Shown: piece by piece, positions 14 to 21,962 of the stretch
Position numbering within the stretch: the stretch's first letter is position 1
How the letters are laid out: every line of letters starts with the position of its first letter
Assembly (NCBI RefSeq): GCF_010537335.1
Contig: NZ_AP019711.1
Location: forward strand, 1,488,001-1,552,000
Direction of reading: 5' to 3'
Length of the DNA stretch: 64,000 bases
DNA from: Amedibacterium intestinale
GTDB taxonomy: Bacteria; Bacillota_I; Bacilli_A; Erysipelotrichales; Erysipelotrichaceae
The notes under the pieces: generated by a model
Databases searched by the model: none
What the model was told of the DNA's origin: nothing
The model's input: the letters and a program-made list of their open reading frames with translations, nothing else
Program-made: the position numbers and the translations under genes

Positions 14-42
14 TTTCAAAGTCCTCCTTCATTAACACCAAT

Positions 43-71
43 ATTATACGAACTTCTTACCTAAAAGTCAA
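43..71 (-). promoter_or_regulatory. Sigma-A promoter of the left-edge gene
   Basis: On the minus strand the -35 is TTGACT (66-71), the spacer is 17 bases and the -10 is TATAAT (43-48), a near-perfect housekeeping promoter. It fires away from clpP, so the two genes are divergent. Confidence 0.8.
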
Positions 72-183
72 TTGAGAATTCTTTCACTTATGCATTTTTT
101 CAATTCTTTTCCAGTACTTTTTCACATAGGTATAAAACAAGAGATAAATCGCATACTATATAGCATATTAAGGAGGAAAAACA

Positions 184-753
184 ATGGTTGTTGTACCTAC
201 AATTTTAGAAAGAAGTAACGATAAAGAATATATGTATGATTTATATTCTTGTCTTTTAAAAAAAAGAATTATTTTACTTAATGGTGAAATTGATGATACG
301 ATGTCAAACAGTATCTGTGCACAGCTTTTATACTTATCAAGCCTAAGTAAAGACCCTATCCAAATCTATATAAATTCCAATGGGGGAAGTATTTCCGCAG
401 GGCTTGCTATTTATGATATCATGCAATATATACCATGTGAAATCTCTACTATCTGCATGGGTTTATGCGCTAGCATGGCTGCTGTAATACTAGCTGCTGG
501 TACAAAAGGAAAACGCTGTGCTTTAAAGCATGCAGAAGTCATGATTCACCAGCCTCTTGGTGGTATGCAAGGGCAGGCAAAAGACATGGAAATCGCAATG
601 AAACACATGAGCCGAACGAAAGATACCATCTATGAAATTTTAAGTAACACGACTTCCCAGCCAAAAGAAAAAATACAAATAGACTGCGACAGAGATTATT
701 TCATGAACGTCCATGAAGCGAAAGTCTATGGTATTATAGATCACATCATTTAA
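184..753 (+). CDS. clpP: ATP-dependent Clp protease proteolytic subunit (ClpP, divergent)
   Basis: A 189-residue ClpP serine peptidase, the usual length. The Ser-His-Asp triad is in place: S97 in GLCASMAA, H122 in MIHQPLGG and D171 in DRDYFM, the same numbers as in E. coli ClpP. AGGAGG sits seven bases before the ATG. Several positions differ from ordinary Firmicute ClpP: the oxyanion stretch has CASMAAVIL where MAASMGAFL is usual, and NTTSQP replaces DRTGQP. No clpX or other Clp ATPase adjoins it. It assembles a barrel that degrades proteins delivered by a Clp unfoldase; this copy may be a second paralogue rather than the housekeeping one, which is inference. Confidence 0.93.
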   Translation: MVVVPTILERSNDKEYMYDLYSCLLKKRIILLNGEIDDTMSNSICAQLLYLSSLSKDPIQIYINSNGGSISAGLAIYDIMQYIPCEISTICMGLCASMAAVILAAGTKGKRCALKHAEVMIHQPLGGMQGQAKDMEIAMKHMSRTKDTIYEILSNTTSQPKEKIQIDCDRDYFMNVHEAKVYGIIDHII

Positions 754-794
754 AAAAGTCTGAATTTCCTCAGACCTTACATAAACAGTTTTCA

Positions 795-824
795 AATAAA
801 AAAAGCGAGATTTTAAACTCGCTT
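795..824 (-). terminator. Intrinsic terminator of the three-gene minus-strand operon
   Basis: The minus-strand hairpin AAGCGAG/CTCGCTT overlaps the stop codon of the gene ending at 813 and is followed by a run of T. A second hairpin (GTCTGA/TCAGAC, 758-775) with a T6 tail on the same strand lies just behind it, giving tandem terminators facing clpP. Confidence 0.8.
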
Positions 825-1472
825 CATTATTTCGTGGATATTATCTTCATAAGGTGTACCCTTACAATGTTCCAATGCAGGGGTAAAATACTTCATCATA
901 TTTTCACGATCATTTTCATAAGAGTATTGTAAACCAATCAAATATTCAAATGTACCAACAATCATTTTTTTATCATCACCAAGAGGAGTCTTTCCATCCC
1001 ACAAAGCTTCTAATTTCTGTTTTACCTCATCAATATATTTGCTTTCTTTCTTCAAAAGAATACTATATTGCATTTCTAAATCCCTGCAAACATTTTCTCC
1101 ACCATTTGCCTTAACAAAATCAATCATATCACGAGCTTTCTTTGCACGTCCCTGCTCTAAATAATAGTAAAACCCTCTATTCCCCAAAGCAATTTTGTAT
1201 TTTGCTTTTACACGCATATTTTTCATCATTGCAAACTGATTTTCAACATCATCTTTGCGTCCTTCACTCATATATCCTGACAAACGCATATTTTCTCTAT
1301 CAAATGCAGAATAGGATACTTTACACATAAAAGAGTCAATTGATTTGTAATATTTGTTAAAATCTTCTTTTTCAAGAGCCTTTACGATTTTATTCCAAGA
1401 TAACTTACGCATCACTAATGGAATACAAGCTAATATAACTACAAACAACAGTATAATCAATAAATTTTTCAT
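813..1472 (-). CDS. Membrane-anchored helical repeat protein, function unknown
   Basis: The 219-residue product has one N-terminal hydrophobic segment (residues 3-21) followed by a soluble, charged, helix-rich domain whose spacing resembles TPR-like helical pairs (for example MRVKAKYKIALGNRGFYYY followed by a second helix). No catalytic motif was seen. It is the last gene of an operon with two other unknown genes and ends in tandem terminators. The upstream ribosome binding site (GGATGGAAGA) is weak. It may be an envelope-associated scaffold, which is only a guess from topology. Confidence 0.6.
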   Translation of the reverse strand: MKNLLIILLFVVILACIPLVMRKLSWNKIVKALEKEDFNKYYKSIDSFMCKVSYSAFDRENMRLSGYMSEGRKDDVENQFAMMKNMRVKAKYKIALGNRGFYYYLEQGRAKKARDMIDFVKANGGENVCRDLEMQYSILLKKESKYIDEVKQKLEALWDGKTPLGDDKKMIVGTFEYLIGLQYSYENDRENMMKYFTPALEHCKGTPYEDNIHEIMKRV

Positions 1473-1530
1473 TTTCTTCCATCCAATCTTTTAAAAATAT
1501 AAAACATTAAGTAAATAATTCCTATATTTT

Positions 1531-2091
1531 TTATTTCTTGTTTTTTGTTAAACACGCAAACAATTCAAACAATGCCATAAAAACTGAAGCCACAGCAAAA
1601 GCATAGTTCAGATACAAAACAACACCTGTATAACCCTGCTGTTTTACATTTATTACCAGCAAGGTTGCTAATAAAATAAATAAGACAATTTTTAAGATTA
1701 CTTTATTTAAAGGCTTTTGTCTTTCAGCATCTACCTTACTTATTTTCTTTTCCGGAACAAAATTTGTCATTTGTGTTAAATTTGATAAAAATCTTCTAAA
1801 TTTAAATTCCATAAAAGCATACACTGCAATACCTAAAACAACACAAAGCCATAAAGGAAGTTTAAATGCATAGATAATGACAATTGCAGCGATTCCTAAA
1901 AAGAAACGCATACTATACAATTGATATGTTTTCTCCACATCTTTTAACAAGTATGCTCTTTTTGAAAAACGATCATAGTACACTGGTCTTTGACGTGAAT
2001 CAAAATATACATTCATACCACCGATTTCAGGTGTAGTTTTTTTATCAACCTGTTTTACACGATTTGATCTCTTGTTTTTCATATTTGCCAT
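1531..2091 (-). CDS. Multi-pass membrane protein, function unknown
   Basis: 186 residues. A basic cytoplasmic N-terminus of about 60 residues precedes two hydrophobic stretches (about 61-98) and two more near 131-150 and 155-180, so four membrane segments are likely. The start is supported by GAGGTG five bases upstream. It is 12 bases behind the gene that ends at 2104, in the same operon. No family recognised. Confidence 0.6.
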   Translation of the reverse strand: MANMKNKRSNRVKQVDKKTTPEIGGMNVYFDSRQRPVYYDRFSKRAYLLKDVEKTYQLYSMRFFLGIAAIVIIYAFKLPLWLCVVLGIAVYAFMEFKFRRFLSNLTQMTNFVPEKKISKVDAERQKPLNKVILKIVLFILLATLLVINVKQQGYTGVVLYLNYAFAVASVFMALFELFACLTKNKK

Positions 2092-2103
2092 ACAAACACC
2101 TCT

Positions 2104-2670
2104 TTACCACGCAACAATTTCTTCCTGCTCTTCTTCTGACTTAGCAGGCCCTCTCTTAAAATCATAATAAGTTGTTAACCAGCCAGCATCTTCTGGTTTT
2201 TCACTGCTTTCTAAAGTTTCTCCATACAACGATAAGAAATCTGTTTCAGATAATTTATCACCCACTGAATTAACTCTGTAAAACTTAGGAGCTTTTCCGA
2301 TTTGCATAAACATTGTATCAATCATCATATAATCAGCAACATGACTTGCTTTTGTAGAAAATGAAACTTCATCTAACAACGTTCTACAAAACTGCTTAAC
2401 CATACCTTTATCTACATTACCTCTGAAAATAATAAATGGAATCTTATTATTTGTAACCTTCAATGCTTGACTGAATGTAAACTTATTAACAATATTGACA
2501 TAGCACTCATCAATAATTTGTTCCATATATGATTGATAATCTTCATCTGACTTTAACATATCCTCATTCAATCGAATATTAAAATATACGGTTGGATGAA
2601 TCGAACAATGTTTATACAAAGTACCCATTAAATTTGTTGCATAAAGTACTGGATATTTCTTATCTTTCAT
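2104..2670 (-). CDS. Conserved-looking soluble protein, function unknown
   Basis: 188 residues with no signal peptide and no membrane segment. The start has GGAGGTG eight bases upstream. The protein is acidic at its C-terminus (SEEEQEE). No motif I can name is present. As first gene of a three-gene operon with two membrane proteins it may act with them at the inner face of the membrane; this is inference from context only. Confidence 0.55.
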   Translation of the reverse strand: MKDKKYPVLYATNLMGTLYKHCSIHPTVYFNIRLNEDMLKSDEDYQSYMEQIIDECYVNIVNKFTFSQALKVTNNKIPFIIFRGNVDKGMVKQFCRTLLDEVSFSTKASHVADYMMIDTMFMQIGKAPKFYRVNSVGDKLSETDFLSLYGETLESSEKPEDAGWLTTYYDFKRGPAKSEEEQEEIVAW

Positions 2671-2718
2671 AGTAGAAGCACCTCCAAAAACTGCTCTCTA
2701 ATTATAATATATAAATTT

Positions 2719-2753
2719 TAAAAATAAAAGGACCATGGACAATTCATGGTCCT
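2719..2753 (-). terminator. Terminator of the PTS IIB-IIC-IID operon
   Basis: Nine-base-pair hairpin AGGACCATG/CATGGTCCT with a TTTTATTTTT tail on the minus strand, just after the IID stop codon. Confidence 0.85.
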
Positions 2754-2787
2754 CTTAAAAGTATAGTTACAAAACTTAGTTTATTAA

Positions 2788-3792
2788 CTATTCTGGCATT
2801 GTTACTTTAACACCATTTTCATTTAACTGATCAACAATTTTCTGAGTTGCATCCCAAGCTTCCTGACCAGTTTTTTCTGGAGCAGCTGGAGCTGGGTATT
2901 CATACCATTCAACCAATGGTTTATATCCACCGTTAATTCCTGCACCATTTTCATCGATAGCTTTAGAATCACCTGTCCAGATACCGAATGCACAACCAAC
3001 GATACCTGCAACCAAAATCAATACGATACATTTGATTGGAGTCCATCCTTTTTTGATCAATGCATATAAACCACAAGTGATTAACAATGGAATCAATTTA
3101 GGAAGGATACCATCTAATAATGACTGAACATTAATAGCTGGATCAGCAATTGCAATACGAACAGTTGTAGAACCATAGTTAGCAATCAATGCACCTACTG
3201 TAAAGATACCTAAGATAGAAGCTGCACGAGTAAATTCTTTTGCGTTAGATGTTAACATACCAACAGCAGAAGTTCCTAAGTTATAAGACCAGTGCATTAA
3301 GAAATAACGAATTGCGAACTGCACAGCATTGAAAATTACTAAGAATAAAATAGCACCTATGATAGAAGCATCGTTTAATGCCATATTAGCTGTAATACCA
3401 CCAACAATTGGTACTAAAGTTAACCAGAACAATGCATCACCGATACCACCTAATGGACCAGCAGCAGAGATACGTACAGAACGAATTGTCTGTGTATCAA
3501 CTTTATTCTGTTCCAATGAAAGAACGATACCCATAACGAATGTTACTAAGAATGGATGCGTATTTAAGAAGTCCAAGTTGTGAGCCATAGAAGCTTTCAA
3601 GTCTTCTTTATTTGTATGGATTTTTGTCAAACCTGGTAAAATAGCCCATAACCAACCTGCAGCCTGCATACGTTCATAGTTGAATGAAGCCTGCAAGAAA
3701 CAAGACATCCATACCATTTTATTTAAAGTCTTTTTATCCAGTTTTGCAGCTGGAGTCAAATCTTGATAATGTTCAGGAATATTATATGCCAT
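2788..3792 (-). CDS. PTS mannose/fructose/sorbose-family IID component
   Basis: One of the two membrane subunits of a mannose-family phosphotransferase permease. The N-terminus (MAYNIPEHYQDLTPAAKLDKK), the early MVWMSCFLQASFNYERMQ and the glycine-rich RISAAGPLGGIGDALFW are IID hallmarks; hydrophobic segments lie in the C-terminal half. At 334 residues it is longer than the usual 270-300 because of a hydrophilic insert near 270-310. The ATG at 3792 is chosen over a GTG three codons earlier because GGAGGTG then lies six bases upstream. It overlaps the IIC gene by 11 bases, so translation is probably coupled. Confidence 0.95.
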   Translation of the reverse strand: MAYNIPEHYQDLTPAAKLDKKTLNKMVWMSCFLQASFNYERMQAAGWLWAILPGLTKIHTNKEDLKASMAHNLDFLNTHPFLVTFVMGIVLSLEQNKVDTQTIRSVRISAAGPLGGIGDALFWLTLVPIVGGITANMALNDASIIGAILFLVIFNAVQFAIRYFLMHWSYNLGTSAVGMLTSNAKEFTRAASILGIFTVGALIANYGSTTVRIAIADPAINVQSLLDGILPKLIPLLITCGLYALIKKGWTPIKCIVLILVAGIVGCAFGIWTGDSKAIDENGAGINGGYKPLVEWYEYPAPAAPEKTGQEAWDATQKIVDQLNENGVKVTMPE

Positions 3793-4609
3793 CTGAAACA
3801 CCTCCTGCTCCTATACCAGCATTAGCTTTAATTTTAGAGTTCATCTGGTAATCGTAAAGAGCGATAGCCAAACCAACCATAGCACACATTAACAATGTAG
3901 CACCTGACATTCCTGGAACTGCAGCACAGATATTTGCCATAACGAAACCAGCAAATAAGAATCCCCACATTTCTCCAGACATCATAACTTTCATCAAGAT
4001 AGCGAAACCAACAAATTTCATAGCTCCACCAGCAGCATCTAATCCAGCCATTACCCAAGACCACTGGAATGAGAATGCACGTAAACTATCACCTAAAGCA
4101 GATGCACCATATACACCAGCTACAGCTAATACACCAAACAAGCATCCTAAGATTGCCATTTCAGTGTAGTTAACCATTGCGATACCTTTAGGATCTGCAT
4201 TTTCAGCAGCTTTATCAGCTTTAGCCATAAGACCTGACATAATTGTAAATGTTAAAGTAACAGCGTACTGTCCAAATACAGCAAATGGAATAGCTAAACC
4301 AACAGCTAAACCAACACCATCAGCAGTTGGTTCCAAATTCATTGCGATAGCAAATGCAGCTGTCATGATTGTACCCATGATAGCGTTAGGAGGCTGAGCT
4401 CCACCGATTGGCATACTACCAATCTGAACTAGCTGGTAAGCACCACCAACTACGATACCTAATTCAAGATTTCCTAAAATCGCACCCATGATTGGTCCTA
4501 ATACAACCGGCTGGTACAAAGATTCCAAGAAACTGAACTGGTCAATACCCATAATGAATGCTACTACGAAGATCATAATAGCTTGAACGATTGAAATATC
4601 AATACTCAT
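3782..4609 (-). CDS. PTS mannose/fructose/sorbose-family IIC component
   Basis: 275-residue integral membrane subunit of the sugar channel. The motif GGAYQLVQIGSMPIGGAQPP (about residues 60-79) is characteristic of the family, and hydrophobic segments cover most of the length. The start has AAAGGAG eight to nine bases upstream. IIC and IID form the translocation pore while IIB phosphorylates the incoming sugar. Substrate cannot be read from this subunit alone; the AgaS neighbour suggests an amino sugar. Confidence 0.95.
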   Translation of the reverse strand: MSIDISIVQAIMIFVVAFIMGIDQFSFLESLYQPVVLGPIMGAILGNLELGIVVGGAYQLVQIGSMPIGGAQPPNAIMGTIMTAAFAIAMNLEPTADGVGLAVGLAIPFAVFGQYAVTLTFTIMSGLMAKADKAAENADPKGIAMVNYTEMAILGCLFGVLAVAGVYGASALGDSLRAFSFQWSWVMAGLDAAGGAMKFVGFAILMKVMMSGEMWGFLFAGFVMANICAAVPGMSGATLLMCAMVGLAIALYDYQMNSKIKANAGIGAGGVSDGI

Positions 4610-4642
4610 TATTGTTTCTCCTTTCAATTCCTTTAATGAATT

Positions 4643-5119
4643 TTATTTAAATAGTTTGTTAATGTCTTCAGAAGGTGTATCTGGAACTCGTTTAATTTCA
4701 AGTTCTACACCAAGATCCTGAAGTTTTTTGAAAGTTGCAACATCATCATCATTTACTGCAACAGAAGTAGCAACCTGACGTTTTCCTTCTGCCATGTGCA
4801 TGTTTCCGATGTTAACTTTCTTAATTGGCACTCCGCCTTCCACAAGTTTTAATACATCCTGTGGAGTTTCACAGATAATAGCAATATGCTGTGCTGGACT
4901 CGCTTTACCGATAATATCGATAGTCTTCTGAATACTGAAGAAACGTGTCTGTGCATATGCAGGTGCTGCCATGTTCATTAATCCCTGACGGAATGTGTCA
5001 GTAGATACTGCATCATTAGCAACTAACAATAAGTTAGCACCTACAACACCACACCACTGTGTTGCTACCTGTCCATGAATTAAACGGTTGTCAATTCTTG
5101 TAAGTACAATATCTGGCAT
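4643..5119 (-). CDS. PTS mannose/fructose/sorbose-family IIB component
   Basis: 158 residues, the family length. It opens MPDIVLTRIDNRLIHGQV, in which H15 is the phosphorylated histidine that passes the phosphoryl group from IIA to sugar. An upstream TTG start at 5179 is rejected because it would add 20 non-homologous residues; AGGAG lies about 12 bases before the ATG. It is the first gene of the IIB-IIC-IID operon, divergent from the AraC-type regulator. Confidence 0.94.
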   Translation of the reverse strand: MPDIVLTRIDNRLIHGQVATQWCGVVGANLLLVANDAVSTDTFRQGLMNMAAPAYAQTRFFSIQKTIDIIGKASPAQHIAIICETPQDVLKLVEGGVPIKKVNIGNMHMAEGKRQVATSVAVNDDDVATFKKLQDLGVELEIKRVPDTPSEDINKLFK

Positions 5120-5360
5120 CTGGTCTTTTCTCTCCTTTCCTTTTTCTAGACTTGAACGAATCTTGTTTGTTAAATCCAAATCCCAAAGGAATGATTCAAC
5201 AAGTAACCCCTTTCAGTTCACTATCGATTTTATGCGAAAACAACTCTAAATTCTTTGTAATTTTTATTACTCATTTTGTACTTTTTAGTATTTTGTAGCA
5301 AATTCTATAATAAAAATCACAACCTTGCATAATTTTACATAATTTTTGCAAAAAAATCCA

Positions 5361-5390
5361 TATCACAAAATTATCGTTGATTATGTGATA
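5361..5390. promoter_or_regulatory. Inverted repeat in the divergent PTS/regulator intergenic region
   Basis: TATCACA (5361-5367) is mirrored by TGTGATA (5384-5390) across 16 bases, in the very AT-rich 413-base gap between the IIB operon and the AraC-type gene. It is a candidate operator for that regulator. No sigma-54 (-24/-12) signature and no good catabolite response element were found here, and the IIB promoter itself is not clear. Confidence 0.4.
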
Positions 5391-5500
5391 TAAAAAATAT
5401 AGAATCTATATATCTATCACTTTTTAGTAAAAATGAAATTATTTTCATAAAATACACATAATTTTATCAAGAGTTTTTCCTTTTCTACTTTATAAACTTT

Positions 5501-5509
5501 TGTTATACT
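5501..5509 (+). promoter_or_regulatory. Extended -10 promoter of the AraC-type regulator
   Basis: TGTTATACT is a TGn-extended -10 element (TATACT at 5504-5509) 24 bases before the start codon; the -35 is poor. Its position shows that a TTG at 5500 cannot be the translation start. Confidence 0.55.
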
Positions 5510-5532
5510 ATAGAAAAAAGGAGAGTGTATAC

Positions 5533-6705
5533 ATGTTTACCAAAACAACAAGCTTTGCTTTTAGTGAATATGGAGAAATCGTTAATAAAAGTGAGTATAA
5601 ATTCCCTCAAAAAAATATACATTCTACACTTCGTATTAAAGAGAAGAGTTTTACTTCTTTTCTTTCCTATGATCATGATGTATATATTCAGGCTACTTCA
5701 GGAATCGTTATGTTAGTCGTATGCAAAGAAGGGGATATAAAAGCTCCAGAGCAATTTATTATTCATAGGACAATAAAAATCAAAAAAGGTATTCTATTTA
5801 ACTTCATAAGCATTTCACATTCAGCACGTATTCTTATGAATACAGATACTAAGGCAAAAAAAACAACACATCCTCTTCCAAAAGATGCTCCTATTGTATA
5901 TGAGCCAATCATTCCAAGTTTCGAGATCAAAGAAATATTATCTTATTTTTATCAAGTAAGAAATGCCAGTTATGAATTTCCAGGTGAAGAACATGAATTT
6001 TGGGAATTGACTTTTATTGATAATGGTGAGTTAACAACAACAGTTAATGATGAGGAATATAATCTTGATGAAATGGATTTGATTTTATATGCTCCTGGTC
6101 AATATCACACACAAAAAACCGGGCATTCGAAGTCCTGCAGTTATTTAACGATATTATTTGATATGGAACTTCCAGATGCATATTTATTAACAGATCGTGT
6201 GTATCATGCTCATCGAGATATTCAAAATGCACTTAACAATTTTATTAAAGTATCAAGCAATGATATGCTGTATGATAACGAACTCATGCTTTGTTATTTA
6301 AAAGAGTTAATTATACGTATTCTACAGTATGATTTTTTATCAAGCTCACCAATCGCTTCCACCCCTATGCAGCAGCGCTTTGAAAATGAATTATTAAATG
6401 AAATCATTGTTTATATAAATGATATGATATATAAACAATTGACTATAGAAGAGATATGCAACAAATTTTCCATCTCTAGATCTAGTTTACAGCTTTTATT
6501 TAAAAATAATTTAGGCACCGCCCCTAAACAATATATCAGTGATTTAAAGCTTAATAAAAGTAAGCATCTTATCAAAGAAAGTATGTATACAATAAGTGAA
6601 ATTGCCAGTATGCTAGGCTTTACAAGTATCCATTATTTTTCCAGAAAATTTAAACAGCAGTTTGGTATTACGCCTACTGATTATGCAAAAACTATCTACA
6701 ATTAA
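5533..6705 (+). CDS. AraC-family transcriptional regulator of the PTS locus
   Basis: 390 residues. The last 100 residues hold the paired AraC helix-turn-helix: LTIEEICNKFSISRSSLQ followed by ISEIASMLGFTSIHYFSRKF and QFGITPTDY. A cupin-like sensing domain with EFWELTFIDNG and APGQYHT occupies about 145-210, and an unrecognised domain fills residues 1-130. AGGAGA lies eight bases before the ATG. It sits between the two PTS/AgaS transcription units and is transcribed oppositely to both, the usual position of a local regulator. Activation by the imported sugar phosphate is inferred. Confidence 0.9.
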   Translation: MFTKTTSFAFSEYGEIVNKSEYKFPQKNIHSTLRIKEKSFTSFLSYDHDVYIQATSGIVMLVVCKEGDIKAPEQFIIHRTIKIKKGILFNFISISHSARILMNTDTKAKKTTHPLPKDAPIVYEPIIPSFEIKEILSYFYQVRNASYEFPGEEHEFWELTFIDNGELTTTVNDEEYNLDEMDLILYAPGQYHTQKTGHSKSCSYLTILFDMELPDAYLLTDRVYHAHRDIQNALNNFIKVSSNDMLYDNELMLCYLKELIIRILQYDFLSSSPIASTPMQQRFENELLNEIIVYINDMIYKQLTIEEICNKFSISRSSLQLLFKNNLGTAPKQYISDLKLNKSKHLIKESMYTISEIASMLGFTSIHYFSRKFKQQFGITPTDYAKTIYN

Positions 6706-16905: not shown

Positions 16906-17832
16906 TTATTCATAGCACACAATACTTACACCTTGTGCTATGGCATCAACTGTATCTTTTTCTTCCAATAAACCATTTTCATCAATCGCAAACGCAACTA
17001 AATTATCACTATTTCGATTTGCGACAAACAAGTAACGATCATCAAGGGAAAGATTGATATCGCGAGGATGATCGCCTCCACTTGAAATCACCTGTAAAAT
17101 CGCAAAACTTTGTGTATCTACAACATAGACACGATTTACTTCACGAACGGATATATACAATCGTTTTTCATTTTGACTCAAACGAATTGCAGCTCCTCCG
17201 CCTTTTTCATTCTCTTTCAGCAATGAGATTTTCTTTAAAATCGTATTAGTCTCTAAATCAATAGCAAACACTTCACAGCTATCTTCACTAACCATATATA
17301 ATATATGATCATCATGACTTGCAACACCATGGCGAATCCCTGTATGTTTTGGAAATGAAAGAACTCTTTTAAATTCCAGAGTATCACGATCATACACATA
17401 TACATGGTCTAATAAACGACATGGCACATATACATGCGACTTCGTTAAAATTGCCTGATGTGCTCCCGAATGTTCTTGAATCTCAACTTTTTTATCTTCC
17501 ACTAACTGATGATTTTCAAAACAATAGCGAATCAGTGTTCCTTCATGATAATTAACTGTATATATATAAGTTTTATCTTGTCCAACATAACATGCCGTAC
17601 AGCTTTCTTTTCCGGCTTTATATGTTTGTCCATCTTTCAAAACACATATACCTGCAGCTTCTTCCTGTATTGGAAATACAAAACGATTATAATCATATGA
17701 TAAATATTTTGCATCTCTTGTTTCAAAGTATACACTTGTTTCTATAAATTTATCTTTTTCAGTATCAAATACAAAAGAGTAAACTCCTTTGCTTGGTGCA
17801 TAAGTTCCTACCCAACCTTTTATTGTTTTCAT
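16906..17832 (-). CDS. pgl: 6-phosphogluconolactonase, beta-propeller type
   Basis: 308 residues of the seven-bladed propeller lactonase family (PF10282). Repeated blades are visible as DKTYIYTVNYHEGTL, KSHVYVPCRLLDHVYVY, EKRLYISVREVNRVYVV and DDRYLFVANRNSDNLVAF; SSGGDHPRDINLS is the conserved family stretch. It hydrolyses the Zwf product to 6-phosphogluconate for Gnd, which explains the operon. The enzymatic role is inferred from family plus context. Confidence 0.9.
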   Translation of the reverse strand: MKTIKGWVGTYAPSKGVYSFVFDTEKDKFIETSVYFETRDAKYLSYDYNRFVFPIQEEAAGICVLKDGQTYKAGKESCTACYVGQDKTYIYTVNYHEGTLIRYCFENHQLVEDKKVEIQEHSGAHQAILTKSHVYVPCRLLDHVYVYDRDTLEFKRVLSFPKHTGIRHGVASHDDHILYMVSEDSCEVFAIDLETNTILKKISLLKENEKGGGAAIRLSQNEKRLYISVREVNRVYVVDTQSFAILQVISSGGDHPRDINLSLDDRYLFVANRNSDNLVAFAIDENGLLEEKDTVDAIAQGVSIVCYE

Positions 17833-17868
17833 AACAAGCCTCCATTCATATCATTACTGCTTATAATC

Positions 17869-17897
17869 ATCATACAAGAGTGTCATTTTAAAAGCAA
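17869..17897 (-). promoter_or_regulatory. Promoter of pgl-gnd-zwf
   Basis: TTGCTT (17892-17897), 17-base spacer, TATGAT (17869-17874), followed by an AGGC-type ribosome binding site before pgl. Confidence 0.7.
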
Positions 17898-18138
17898 TTT
17901 GCATGCTCAACCGAAATATCTTGGGATACTTCCCTGATTTCTCTTATGATGTATTATAGCTAACACAATATATAGACATGAAACTAAAGTTATAGATATA
18001 TCTTTTAACAATAAAGATGGAGTATTTTATTGTCACATTTGTGCTATCATTCCTTCAAGCAACAAAATACTTGCATAAAAAATGACGCTCTCTATCATTA
18101 TTTACTTGTATGAAATATTATATCCACAATTTTTGATT

Positions 18139-18210
18139 AACATTTTGAGAATTGTAAAACATGATAAAATTAGCACTTTAGTGCAATTTTATTGCATACC
18201 TGCTGCATTG
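18139..18210. repeat. Cassette-end module, copy 3 (most decayed)
   Basis: AACATTTTGAGAATT (18139-18153) matches the rpsI-tail core at 13 of 15 bases, and TTTTATTGCATACCTGCTG begins 48 bases to its right. It is the outermost of three such modules. Between them a stem GCACT-TT-AGTGC with AATTTT/AAAATT flanks (18166-18190) may act as a terminator. The 240 bases to its left, up to the pgl promoter, contain nothing I can assign. Confidence 0.6.
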
Positions 18211-18239
18211 CCATTGCTACTCACAAAACTTATATCCGC

Positions 18240-18437
18240 TTATTCTGCATTATTATTAGATTATGATACAGCTTCAACCTGAGCAATTAATTGTTCCTTA
18301 TCAGTTCACAAAATCAAACCAATGGAAGATTATCATTTTCATCGTTTATTTCTGCTGCATAATAATTCAAATACATATTAAGTTGTCCAACTGCTTTTGG
18401 CATCAATTTAATCGTCTTTAATTCAAGCAATACACAT
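18240..18437 (-). pseudogene. Fragment of a DUF1016 (YhcG-type) PD-(D/E)XK nuclease gene, copy B
   Basis: On the minus strand one frame reads VLLELKTIKLMPKAVGQLN then MYLNYYAAEINDENDN, the nuclease core and C-terminal region of DUF1016 proteins, including the E-x-K of the active site. It then hits a stop, loses about 28 codons and resumes as EQLIAQVEAV with further stops. There is no N-terminal part. Its final stop is 30 bases from the cassette-end motif, as in copy A. Confidence 0.75.
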
Positions 18438-18568
18438 GATCTTTATCGGCTTGTTTTCTGGAATTTACAAGAATGAGATGGAAATTAGATTAAACATATT
18501 TAATATTTTGTAAACAAGTGTATATATTTTACATATACTATAATTATCATAATATATACTTAAATCTT

Positions 18569-18690
18569 TTGACATATGCGTGCATAATTGTATGTTGAAG
18601 GTAGAAATACCGCAAACAGTACGGCTCCTACCGCCATAAGTGTAGGGCGTTAAAGTGTGGAGGGATGCATAATCCTTCCTTTTAATTTTT
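18569..18690 (+). ncRNA. Candidate small structured RNA
   Basis: TTGACA (18569-18574), a 16-base spacer and TATGTT (18591-18596) could be a promoter. The following 90 bases are more GC-rich than the surroundings and fold into GGTAG/CTACC (18600-18632) with an inner CCG/CGG pair, CGCC/GGCG (18632-18649), and a terminator hairpin GGAGGGAT-GCATA-ATCCTTCC with a T-rich tail (18659-18690). I recognise no Rfam family. It may instead be a remnant of a transposon end. Confidence 0.4.
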
Positions 18691-18910
18691 TATAAAACAC
18701 TTAGCATTATTCTTCATCAGAAGAAAACCAAAGAAATTAAATTTGGTTACTGTAATTATGATTTGTTAGAAGATAAAATGAAGGAATGGGAAACTCAAAA
18801 CCATTGATGATATCTGAGTCTTTTTCGCATATTTGAGAATATGGGGTTAGAATATTGTATCTTACGTTTCGCATATTTATCGCTTACCGTTTTTAATTGA
18901 TAAATATACA

Positions 18911-18971
18911 AAAAAAACTCAAATCGAGTCTTAGCCGATAAATAAAGGCTTTTGATGATTGATTTGAGTTT
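18911..18971 (-). terminator. Terminator behind cassette-end module 2
   Basis: Eleven-base arms AAACTCAAATC/GATTTGAGTTT with an internal AGCC/GGCT pair and T7 on the minus strand. It lies about 30 bases beyond the pseudo-rpsI tail, as the real terminator does behind rpsI. The sequence differs from the other two, only the arrangement is shared. Confidence 0.75.
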
Positions 18972-19002
18972 CTTTGAATTGTTTTGAATATTCCCAAAAA
19001 TC

Positions 19003-19075
19003 AACGTTTTGAGAACTCCGAAGCCTTATAAAACAAGGGTTTTAAAAGCGTTTTTGTTGCATACGTATTGCATTG
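19003..19075. repeat. Cassette-end module, copy 2
   Basis: AACGTTTTGAGAACT (19003-19017) is identical over 15 bases to the last codons of rpsI. On the minus strand it reads E-F-S-K-R-stop, like the rpsI C-terminus. TTTTGTTGCATACGTATTG starts 49 bases to the right. It closes the cassette that carries the DUF4143 ATPase. Confidence 0.75.
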
Positions 19076-19134
19076 TCAAAGCATCTTATAACAACATATC
19101 ACTATTCTTTAATAGCAATAGCTTCTTAGGAGTT

Positions 19135-20406
19135 TTAAAAGATTTCAACTCTATTTAACAAGAAATCAATTAAACTGCAATGATAAATCCCGTGATTGTC
19201 ATAATAATTATGAGATATATCATTCCTAATGATAATCTTTTTAAAGAAGTCATTCGTTAGTTTCAAAGAATTCAATTCAGAATTTATTTTTTCTTCTTCA
19301 TCCATTCTTAATGCTGATTGAATATATATTCTTTTATCACCATCATTGACCACAAAGTCTACTTCTTTTACAGCTGTAGTTCTATTTGTACGATCATATA
19401 CGACTCCTACATCAACTGAGTAACCTCTTCTTATCAACTCAAGATATATGATATTTTCCATTAAATGACCAGGATCAAATTGTCTAAAATTTAGTCTAGC
19501 ATTTCTAAGTCCAACATCTGTAAAATAATATTTATTCGGGTATTTAAAATATGATTTCCCTTTTATATCATATCTTTTTGCTATCAAGATTAAAAAAGCA
19601 TTAACAGAATGATTAATATAATGACTAACAAGAATATTGTCTATTTTCTCTTTCTTCTCATTAGAAATGGCATTTGCGACTTTTGTAGGATTTGTTAAAG
19701 ATGAGATTTGTGAAGATAAGTAGTCAAGAATTTCTTCTAATATATCTTCCCTTTCTATACGATTCCTTTCCTTAATATCTTTAATATAGACTTCCTCATA
19801 AAGTGATAACAAATATTTTTTCTTAGCATTATCATCTTTTAATTGTGTTAACCTTGGCATTCCTCCATAGAGCATATATTCTTCTAAGCATTTTCTTTCA
19901 TCTCCACCCTTATATGAATAATACTCTTCAAAAGATAGAGGATAAACATGAATTTGAGTTGATCTTCCTCTAAATTCAGTTAAGATATCACTTGCCAACA
20001 TTTTAGAATTTGAACCTGTAACATATACATCTATATTCTTATATGATTTTAATTCATTTAGCATGTCATAAACAGTTACTTCAATATTGCCATTTTCTTT
20101 GTCAATAGTTTTTATGCTCATCTGAATTTCATCAATAAACACATAATACTTACTGTCATCATCTTTTATAACCGATTCAACATAATCACATAAAAGAATA
20201 GGATTACGATATTTATAGTATTTTCTTTGATCCAGTGAAATAGCAATAATATTTTTATCTGATACTCCTGTTGATATAAGATAATCTCTAAATAATTCAA
20301 ATAAAAGAACTGATTTCCCACATCTTCTAAGACCAGTGATTACTTTTACTTGTCCGTCCCACATACTAGATTTAATTTCTTCTAAATAAAAATCTCGATT
20401 AATCAT
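19135..20406 (-). CDS. AAA-type ATPase with DUF4143 domain
   Basis: 423 residues. Walker A GLRRCGKS (25-32), Walker B YYVFIDEIQ (about 92-100) and a sensor TGSNSKML are intact; the C-terminal half is DUF4143 with a nuclease-like KEVDFVV strand near 340. Such proteins (COG1373) are abundant, often horizontally spread and of unknown role. TACCTCC complement gives a GGAGGTA ribosome binding site. The gene fills one cassette of the rpsI array and has its own promoter framed by two inverted repeats. No partner gene is adjacent. A role in defence or toxin-antitoxin function is possible but unsupported. Confidence 0.88.
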   Translation of the reverse strand: MINRDFYLEEIKSSMWDGQVKVITGLRRCGKSVLLFELFRDYLISTGVSDKNIIAISLDQRKYYKYRNPILLCDYVESVIKDDDSKYYVFIDEIQMSIKTIDKENGNIEVTVYDMLNELKSYKNIDVYVTGSNSKMLASDILTEFRGRSTQIHVYPLSFEEYYSYKGGDERKCLEEYMLYGGMPRLTQLKDDNAKKKYLLSLYEEVYIKDIKERNRIEREDILEEILDYLSSQISSLTNPTKVANAISNEKKEKIDNILVSHYINHSVNAFLILIAKRYDIKGKSYFKYPNKYYFTDVGLRNARLNFRQFDPGHLMENIIYLELIRRGYSVDVGVVYDRTNRTTAVKEVDFVVNDGDKRIYIQSALRMDEEEKINSELNSLKLTNDFFKKIIIRNDISHNYYDNHGIYHCSLIDFLLNRVEIF

Positions 20407-20418
20407 ATTATACCTCCA

Positions 20419-20520
20419 TCTATAAGTGAAAATGTTTGTACTTATAGATATAATAAGCCTTTTACCTTATAAAATCAATTATTATCTATGAGTATAAACG
20501 ACTGTGTTTTAACTTATAGA
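20419..20520 (-). promoter_or_regulatory. Promoter of the DUF4143 gene flanked by two operator-like dyads
   Basis: TTGATT (20473-20478), 17 bases, TATTAT (20450-20455). Immediately downstream lies TCTATAAGT-N12-ACTTATAGA (20419-20448), a perfect 9-base dyad; upstream lies TCTATGAGT-N18-ACTTATAGA (20485-20520), one mismatch. Centres are 69 bases apart. Each dyad is also followed by a TATAAT-like box, so tandem promoters are possible. Confidence 0.6.
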
Positions 20521-20603
20521 TATATTATATACAGCTTTAAAAAAATATTCATAAATGATTTATATTTTAATTTTTATATAGACAGAATAAAAGACTTATC
20601 AAT

Positions 20604-20634
20604 AAAAAAAGATCCAAGATAATCCTGAATCTTT
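20604..20634 (-). terminator. Terminator behind cassette-end module 1
   Basis: Arms AAAGATTCAGGA/TCTTGGATCTTT pair on the minus strand with two G-U pairs and a T7 tail, 20 bases beyond the pseudo-rpsI tail. Confidence 0.75.
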
Positions 20635-20653
20635 CTTCATATTTGTTTTGATT

Positions 20654-20725
20654 AACGTTTAGAGAACTCCGACATATGATAAAATCAACTTTTTTTAGCT
20701 GTTTTGTTGCATACGTGTTGTATTG
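20654..20725. repeat. Cassette-end module, copy 1
   Basis: AACGTTTAGAGAACT (20654-20668) matches the rpsI tail at 14 of 15 bases and again reads E-F-S-K-R-stop on the minus strand. TTTTGTTGCATACGTGTTG begins 48 bases to the right. It closes the cassette carrying the DUF1016 pseudogene nearest rpsI. Confidence 0.75.
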
Positions 20726-20755
20726 ACTTAACTACTCACAAAGACTCACACCCAT

Positions 20756-21440
20756 TTATTCTGTATCATCATTAGATGATAATACAGCTTCAACCTGAGC
20801 AATCAATTGTTCCTTGTCAGGCATATATGTGACATATTTTGATGCAAAAATATTATTACTCAGACCTCCTAATGCATACTGCATATCAACATTCCCCTTA
20901 TCAGTACATAAAATCAAACCAATCGGTGGATTATCATCTTAACGCTAATTCAAGAACCCTCTTTTTGTTAGCCTCGCCATTTGATAACAACAATCTTTCA
21001 AATAATGAAGTGCTTATTTGTCTTTTTAACTCCCTTACTGACCAATTTGCATTAATCGCTTCCTTTTCATAGAAACTACGTTTATCATCATCTGATATAT
21101 ACAGTAATTCACAGTAATGTGACCAGCTTAATTTGCTAGACAGTGTCTGGCAATTTGGATATTTCAAATAAAGTAATCTCATATTTTGAAGGTTTGCTCG
21201 AGAAAATCCTTTCCCAAATTTATTTGTAAGAGTCTTCGATAGTGTAAGTAATTGCTTTTTCCCATATTCGCCACGCTCGGATTTTAACTCATCCTCAACT
21301 ATGATACGTCCTATATTCCAATATGCATTAATTAACTCATTATTAACATTTTTAATAACATTATTTCTAGCATTTACGATAATATAAGTGATTTCATTTA
21401 CTAACGATTCATTATCTAGAAAATTATTTTCCAAAATCAA
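20756..21440 (-). pseudogene. DUF1016 (YhcG-type) nuclease gene with internal deletion, copy A
   Basis: The N-terminal DUF1016 domain is intact for 168 codons from a TTG start (AAAGGAG upstream): NELINAYWNIGRIIVEDE, GKQLLTLSKTLTNKFGKGFS, LSWSHYCELLYI. At 20938 the frame breaks. The next frame carries only the extreme C-terminus DNPPIGLILCTDKGNVDM through FASKYVTYMPDKEQLIAQVE to a stop at 20756. The missing middle is the PD-(D/E)XK catalytic core, so the product cannot cut DNA. A truncated N-terminal protein could still be made. Confidence 0.85.
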
Positions 21441-21490
21441 ATACTCCTTTCAATATTAATTATTCTTATTATACCCCTATTTTAAAAAGA

Positions 21491-21532
21491 AAAAAAGAAG
21501 CATCTAAACTTCTTACAAAGTCTAAATACTTC
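21491..21532 (-). terminator. Terminator of rplM-rpsI
   Basis: Fifteen-base stem (GAAGTATTTAGACTT with AAGTTTAGATGCTTC, three G-U pairs) followed by a T run on the minus strand, 28 bases beyond the rpsI stop. Confidence 0.85.
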
Positions 21533-21557
21533 TCTAATCTTCTCACAACAATTATTA

Positions 21558-21962
21558 CTAACGTTTTGAGAACTGTGGAGCACGACGAGCTGCTTTAAGA
21601 CCGTATTTTTTACGTTCTTTAGCACGTGGATCACGAGTAACGAATCCAGCTGCTTTTAATGCAGGACGATAATCAGCACTTGCTTCCATCAAAGCACGTG
21701 TAATACCGTGACGCATAGCACCAGCCTGACCAGTGTATCCTCCACCTTTAACATTGATTTTGATATCAAATTGTTCTAAAGTTTCAGTTAATTCAAGTGG
21801 TGAACGAACAACCATACGCAAAGTTTCTAGTGGCAAGTATTCTTCTAATGTTTTACCATTAACAACAATATTACCTTTACCCGGAGTCATGAAGACACGA
21901 GCAACAGAAGTTTTACGGCGTCCTGTACCATTGTAAGTTACTGAATTTTTCTTAGCTGCCAT
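21558..21962 (-). CDS. rpsI: 30S ribosomal protein S9
   Basis: 134 residues, universal S9: [18 protein letters not shown] near the N-terminus and the C-terminal [17 protein letters not shown] ending PQFSKR, whose last residues reach the ribosomal P site. AGGAGG-type ribosome binding site upstream. It follows rplM by 13 bases. Its last five codons (21560-21574) are the sequence copied at the three cassette-end modules downstream, which marks the gene 3' end as an insertion target. Confidence 0.98.
21560..21574. repeat. Putative attachment core within the rpsI 3' end
   Basis: AACGTTTTGAGAACT on the plus strand covers the stop and final FSKR codons. Identical or near-identical cores recur at 20654, 19003 and 18139 in the same orientation, but without the GTTGCATACG motif that follows the other three, consistent with this being the chromosomal end. 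Confidence 0.65.

Follow-up and report, generated by a model that had tools for sequence, protein, structure and literature searches.

The window analysed here, a stretch of 64,000 nucleotides from Amedibacterium intestinale, carries on its minus strand an ORF that from its sequence we take to be rpsI, and beyond it a crowded run of features:

18126..18164, minus strand: degenerate, att-like copy of the rpsI 3' end (77% over 39 bp, E 6e-4)
18569..18596, plus strand: promoter-like pair, −35 TTGACA with a worn −10 TATGTT (site scan, relatives' sequences)
18597..18690, plus strand: predicted gene of an orphan type III antitoxin RNA (homologues, covariance model)
18600..18611, plus strand: 5' hairpin GGUA-GAAA-UACC, with GUAGAAAU at 18601-18608 (fold, alignment)
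18623..18646, plus strand: possible H-type pseudoknot (S1 18623-18625/18633-18635; S2 18627-18631/18642-18646)
18650..18655, plus strand: UUAAAG, unchanged in 9/9 alignment rows
18659..18690, plus strand: intrinsic terminator, stem 18659-18679 and T tract (site scan; stem kept in alignments)
18685..18807, plus strand: C-terminal remnant of a ToxN/AbiQ-family toxin, 40 codons and stop (sequence comparison)
19003..19058, minus strand: degenerate, att-like copy of the rpsI 3' end (68% over 57 columns, E 0.004)
20646..20668, minus strand: degenerate, att-like copy of the rpsI 3' end (83% over 23 bp, E 0.03)
21558..21962, minus strand: rpsI, presumed integration target (ORF, translation)

Since degenerate rpsI 3' ends recur at three sites, the region is interpreted from its sequence as several elements stacked by integration at rpsI. 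At least three units seem to lie within 18126-21962, namely those with a DUF1016_N gene (20934-21440), an AAA_14/DUF4143 ATPase (19135-20406) and the antitoxin, the RNA and its toxin tail being the unit most distant from rpsI. The stretches around 18131-18304 and 20646-20820 resemble each other at 74-84%, and no integrase ORF was noticed in the stack (18126-21962).

The RNA island and its toxin tail

An earlier note had described the segment 18569-18690 as a GC-richer island in AT-rich DNA, reading on the plus strand against the surrounding genes, and both points hold: the GC content is 0.436 over 18597-18690 as against 0.269 (18000-18568) and 0.297 (18700-19100) at its sides, and the main ORFs around it are on the minus strand. 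The TTGACA (18569-18574) and TATGTT (18591-18596) pair, spaced by 16 bp, is the top promoter-like site in 17800-19200 (scoring 10/12), and the terminator-like site with T tract at 18659-18679, a single site that allows two parses, is the sole one in that interval, where 0.3 would be expected. Folding of 18590-18695 gives a z of −3.15, with 1 of 200 dinucleotide shuffles equally good or better. The three stem-loops first proposed stand in so far as the RNA is structured, but it parses better as a 5' hairpin followed by one possible H-type pseudoknot and then the terminator. Within this arrangement the motif GUAGAAAU of the 5' hairpin is unchanged across the 9 alignment rows and, since ToxN prefers to cut at AAA^U, is possibly a ToxN cut site, while UUAAAG possibly serves as a 3' processing site.

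Similarly the promoter-like pair is present, but its TATGTT is better seen as a worn form of the −10 box of relatives, which is TATAAT in all eight with a full-length RNA; bases are missing at this place in the window. A −35 element, TTGACT or TTGACA, could be read 16 bp upstream of TATAAT in five of those eight. The promoter that type III loci need 5' of the RNA is therefore present in relatives and worn in the window. The terminator hairpin between RNA and toxin is present, as in the ToxIN-family layout.

The DNA immediately 3' of the island, which had been taken as non-coding, holds the last part of a toxin gene. Directly after the terminator a frame open to its stop matches toxin residues 149-184 (72%, E 2e-10), and compared with its counterpart in G154, one of the relatives described below, it is 87% alike over 39 aa and agrees at 94/106 bases of DNA. 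Pfam recognises no family in the 40-residue remnant by itself, which counts against a type III assignment. From the end of the RNA match to the toxin stretch there are 457 bases in G154 and 3 in the window; about 450 bp of the toxin gene is missing, and similar AT-rich sequence lies at both deletion edges. A search of the window's own genome for a second ToxN returned the remnant alone at E<=10 and nothing at E<=1e-10.

Homologues and the gene behind the RNA

BLAST of 18560-18700 against 194 genomes (own and relatives) found something at E<=0.1 in 70. Besides the own genome, nine genomes of the order have strong homologues (G154, G139, G053, G128, G156, G039, G022, G129 and G147; 84-94% DNA identity, E 6e-12 to 2.5e-39); the matches beyond these are short stretches and are taken as chance. 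We infer that G022 is Holdemanella biformis DSM 3989, G128 Faecalibacillus intestinalis, G154 a Thomasclavelia sp. and G156 strain VE202-01, and that G039 and G053 are uncultured Erysipelotrichales members. The RNAs of the window and G154 match at 88/92 positions, including the whole of a 38-base core (38/38) that is common without any change to the window, G154, G139 and G053. On these comparisons the island is a genuine RNA gene. That it might be a chance GC-rich patch draws on the frequency of promoter-like sites in the surrounding AT-rich DNA (20 observed in 17800-19200 for 9.6 expected), but with homologues in two families and BLAST E values down to 2.5e-39 its probability is close to nil.

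An order-wide covariance model search at E<=0.01 gave 15 matches in 13 of 315 genomes. The window RNA scores 111.8 bits, being itself one of the nine sequences from which the model was built. Three weak matches, G023:C355 (L084), G113 (L085) and G039:C3 (L087), were dropped as terminator-like or coding, which removes two genomes and leaves 12 loci in 11 genomes. One of these lies outside the window in the same genome (C1:1682226-1682312, L086), a weak and worn second match of 31.5 bits whose likeness to the antitoxin RNA could possibly be coincidence. Homologues with structure, the check put forward in the earlier note, were thus found, and the contrary outcome did not occur. Phage records gave the RNA query a single chance-level match (E 0.4) and plasmid records gave none, and the RNA pattern is absent from the viral contigs searched.

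In G053, G039, G128 and G154 an unbroken frame for a whole ToxN/AbiQ-family ribonuclease toxin of ~180 residues starts shortly 3' of the RNA terminator, and the RNA-terminator-toxin order is the type III toxin-antitoxin gene order. All four proteins are ToxN_toxin PF13958 by Pfam (E 4e-34 to 2e-36), as is the open part of a fifth relative's toxin (E 3e-27), and phmmer matches the toxin to the ToxN and AbiQ structures 4ato, 2xd0, 7d8o and 4glk. By tblastn 76 plasmid records were matched; among the 20 listed, 19 are annotated as ToxN/AbiQ and the top identity is 38.9%. NCBIfam matched none of three full toxins, which again counts against the assignment, and nothing in the window's ATPase, DUF1016 protein or toxin remnant. 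Toxin matches at E<=1e-5 occur in 27 of 393 genomes, G129 and G237 not being among them and G022 being counted through a different ToxN locus; more distant ones occur at four loci in viral contigs (24%), and two in phage records. G152 has another toxin fragment, which begins close to the end of a contig.

Across the 12 loci the toxin is unbroken in the four just named and damaged in another four: G139 has one stop, G156 has several, G147 keeps a partial toxin and has lost the 5' part of its RNA, and G237 retains short fragments (E 4e-4 to 0.01, in a small database). The window has the tail only. At the remaining three no toxin was found near the RNA, within 8 kb in G022, within 3 kb in G129 and at the second own-genome match. 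In G022 and G129 the toxin-less RNA still has its terminator and a −10 box reading TATAAT. In H. biformis (G022) the RNA is flanked by an integrase and an AAA-type ATPase, adjoining rpsI. The integrase of this element has one weak match (26%) in the window's own genome, far off. At L064 (H. biformis, 38-6117) the element by rpsI has an ATPase ORF, a relaxase-like ORF (by eye) and a Phage_integrase protein (Pfam), and carries the toxin-less antitoxin RNA with an AAA-type ATPase (by eye).

Two other origins suggested for the RNA fare poorly against this record. The guide-RNA origin, from a remnant transposon (a TnpB omega-RNA), could draw on a transposase-like ORF that in G129 ends ~790 bp upstream of the RNA (by eye), but no such ORF was noticed at nine further loci inspected in the same way, and it is an unbroken ToxN frame, not tnpB, that lies 3' of the RNA in four genomes, with wrecks in four more and a tail in the window; we consider this origin very improbable. 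A structured RNA ending in a terminator would equally suit a riboswitch or other cis-regulator severed from its gene. Because a ToxN frame, wreck or tail adjoins the RNA, the gene it was cut off from was a toxin gene and not a regulated metabolic one; no other gene type recurs in what was read of the 12 loci, so that a severed cis-regulator, too, is scarcely to be entertained. In Rfam (release 15) there are eight matches up to E 10, none overlapping the RNA. The idea of a cassette-borne small RNA outside any Rfam family was accordingly sound, with no match at gathering thresholds. This absence itself says little, because in the gathering scan of nine loci, all unmatched, four clear tandem-repeat ToxN antitoxins included as controls (L061, L048, L062 and L055) also went unrecognised.

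Possible pairing within a probable, repeat-free antitoxin

All nine full-length RNAs of the family could fold into an H-type pseudoknot at one shared position, seven having the form GGC-U-CCUAC-C-GCC-6 nt-GUAGG, G022 a longer form and G039 a variant. Units of other ToxN loci (G023, G178, G135 and a viral contig) have the same layout in different letters. The pseudoknot score is modestly beyond chance, as 59 of 2000 shuffles of the window's 48-nt core are as good. Covariation is weak. Among the nine close sequences there are no two-sided base changes, which counts against the type III reading. A 12-row alignment, itself fitted to the structure, has nine pairs with two-sided change as against 0 of 500 shuffles; L012, where the 5' hairpin is probably misaligned, accounts for four, the weak match L086 for another four and G237 (L082) for the ninth. 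The G237 change is C-G to U-A in S2, and in a neutral simulation of its core with 13 changes all 8 pairs were kept in 3240 of 200000 change sets, which lends mild support to a conserved pairing.

In print, criteria for type III loci demand a tandem antitoxin array (PMC8860590, PMC5086642, in the portions available). The family RNAs have none, which counts against a type III assignment: over ~330 bases upstream and periods of 22-79, 0 of 9 family loci beat shuffles, whereas 14 of 21 other ToxN loci did in the same test (a set that includes two near-identical viral contigs and one locus with an atypical 23-base period). In a second set of ToxN loci, 27 of 30 once three partial or broken ones were excluded and with eight shared with the first, repeats of period 28-59 were found in 16; G180 counts as repetitive under the first test alone. 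Because other ToxN loci also fail the repeat tests, repeat-free antitoxins may not be limited to the family here, and some of the repeat-free ToxN loci may not be toxin-antitoxin loci at all. By eye, L045 (G146) and L108 (G120) look like single-unit type III antitoxins ahead of ToxN-family genes. A separate group, L046, L050, L053 and L054 (G051, G210, G110 and G224), has ToxN-family proteins from one genus with similar upstream DNA, in which a promoter-like pair was seen by eye and neither tandem repeats nor a ToxI-like unit was recognised; L054 entered the first repeat set, the other three both sets.

Relic or antidote, and known type III systems

Overall we hold it very probable, on comparative sequence grounds, that the RNA is a type III antitoxin of the ToxN/AbiQ family, carried by an element at the rpsI 3' end, whose toxin gene was lost by an internal deletion. 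Type III toxin-antitoxin pairs are a known form of phage defence. At intact loci of the family the promoter would drive the RNA, with most transcripts stopping at the terminator to give antitoxin and readthrough supplying a small amount of toxin. The toxin would then trim the RNA at A-rich sites, and the pseudoknot would keep it inactive until the RNA decays, for instance upon phage infection. Such a pair could stabilise its element and abort phage infection, as in ToxIN.

Having lost its toxin, and with a worn promoter, the orphan in the window is most likely a weakly transcribed, decaying relic. Should the RNA still be transcribed, it would counteract a cognate ToxN introduced by a sibling element. 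Alternatively, selection might retain it as an anti-addiction or counter-defence RNA that neutralises ToxN when sibling elements bring it in or abortive infection releases it. This we judge unlikely. The core is unchanged between the window, G154, G139 and G053, yet the adjoining remnant differs from G154 at 12 of 106 bases; however, conservation of the core may predate the toxin loss, and the −10 box of the window is worn. The RNAs of G022 and G129 persist with promoter and terminator and no toxin adjoining, but the second match in the window's own genome is also toxin-less while weak and heavily worn, the G237 RNA beside its toxin fragments resembles decay, and G022 has a different ToxN locus elsewhere in its genome (32%, L056). 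Suppression of ToxN by free-standing ToxI mimics of phage TE, as described in the sections available of PMC3475682, favours selection. The wider proposal, that repeat-free, toxin-less RNAs are kept on rpsI elements of gut Erysipelotrichales as antidotes to sibling ToxN modules, is more doubtful again. Were it true, an element or its host would survive or switch off the ToxN addiction or phage defence of competitors for the integration site. With the orphan copies one could test directly whether a lone RNA antitoxin can serve as an anti-addiction gene between mobile elements.

Screens that ask for tandem repeats could overlook this family, which lacks them, and toxin-less copies escape toxin-based screens. 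No orphan or repeat-free type III antitoxin was recognised in the parts of the open-licence literature searched. ToxN/AbiQ itself is already reported in the same class, from Clostridium innocuum (PMC9942572, in excerpt).

The family resembles ToxIN/AbiQ in its PF13958 protein, in the order of promoter, structured RNA, terminator and toxin, and in the layout of its possible H-type pseudoknot; it differs in having one possible pseudoknot unit without tandem repeats, a 5' hairpin in their place and, in the window, the tail only of a toxin. In the accessible text of PMC8860590 and PMC5086642 ToxIN-family antitoxins have 2.8-5.6 repeat copies, and antiQ with 0.8 copies is inviable (PMC5086642). A closer case for a single unit is CptIN of Eubacterium rectale, where one 45-nt pseudoknot repeat on an engineered plasmid neutralised the toxin, although natural cptI has two repeats and belongs to a different type III family (PMC4627078, as far as available). 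For the setting, the accretion described for streptococcal IMEs, with tandem and decayed elements at the rpsI 3' end (PMC5357655, in part), is a likeness drawn from other bacteria, and the window stack has no integrase ORF noticed in it. Like the pseudo-ToxI of phage TE the window RNA is ToxI-like and without a toxin; pseudo-ToxI is phage-borne and works only after repeat expansion (PMC3475682, in the same sections), whereas the RNA described here is a chromosomal single unit within an rpsI element.
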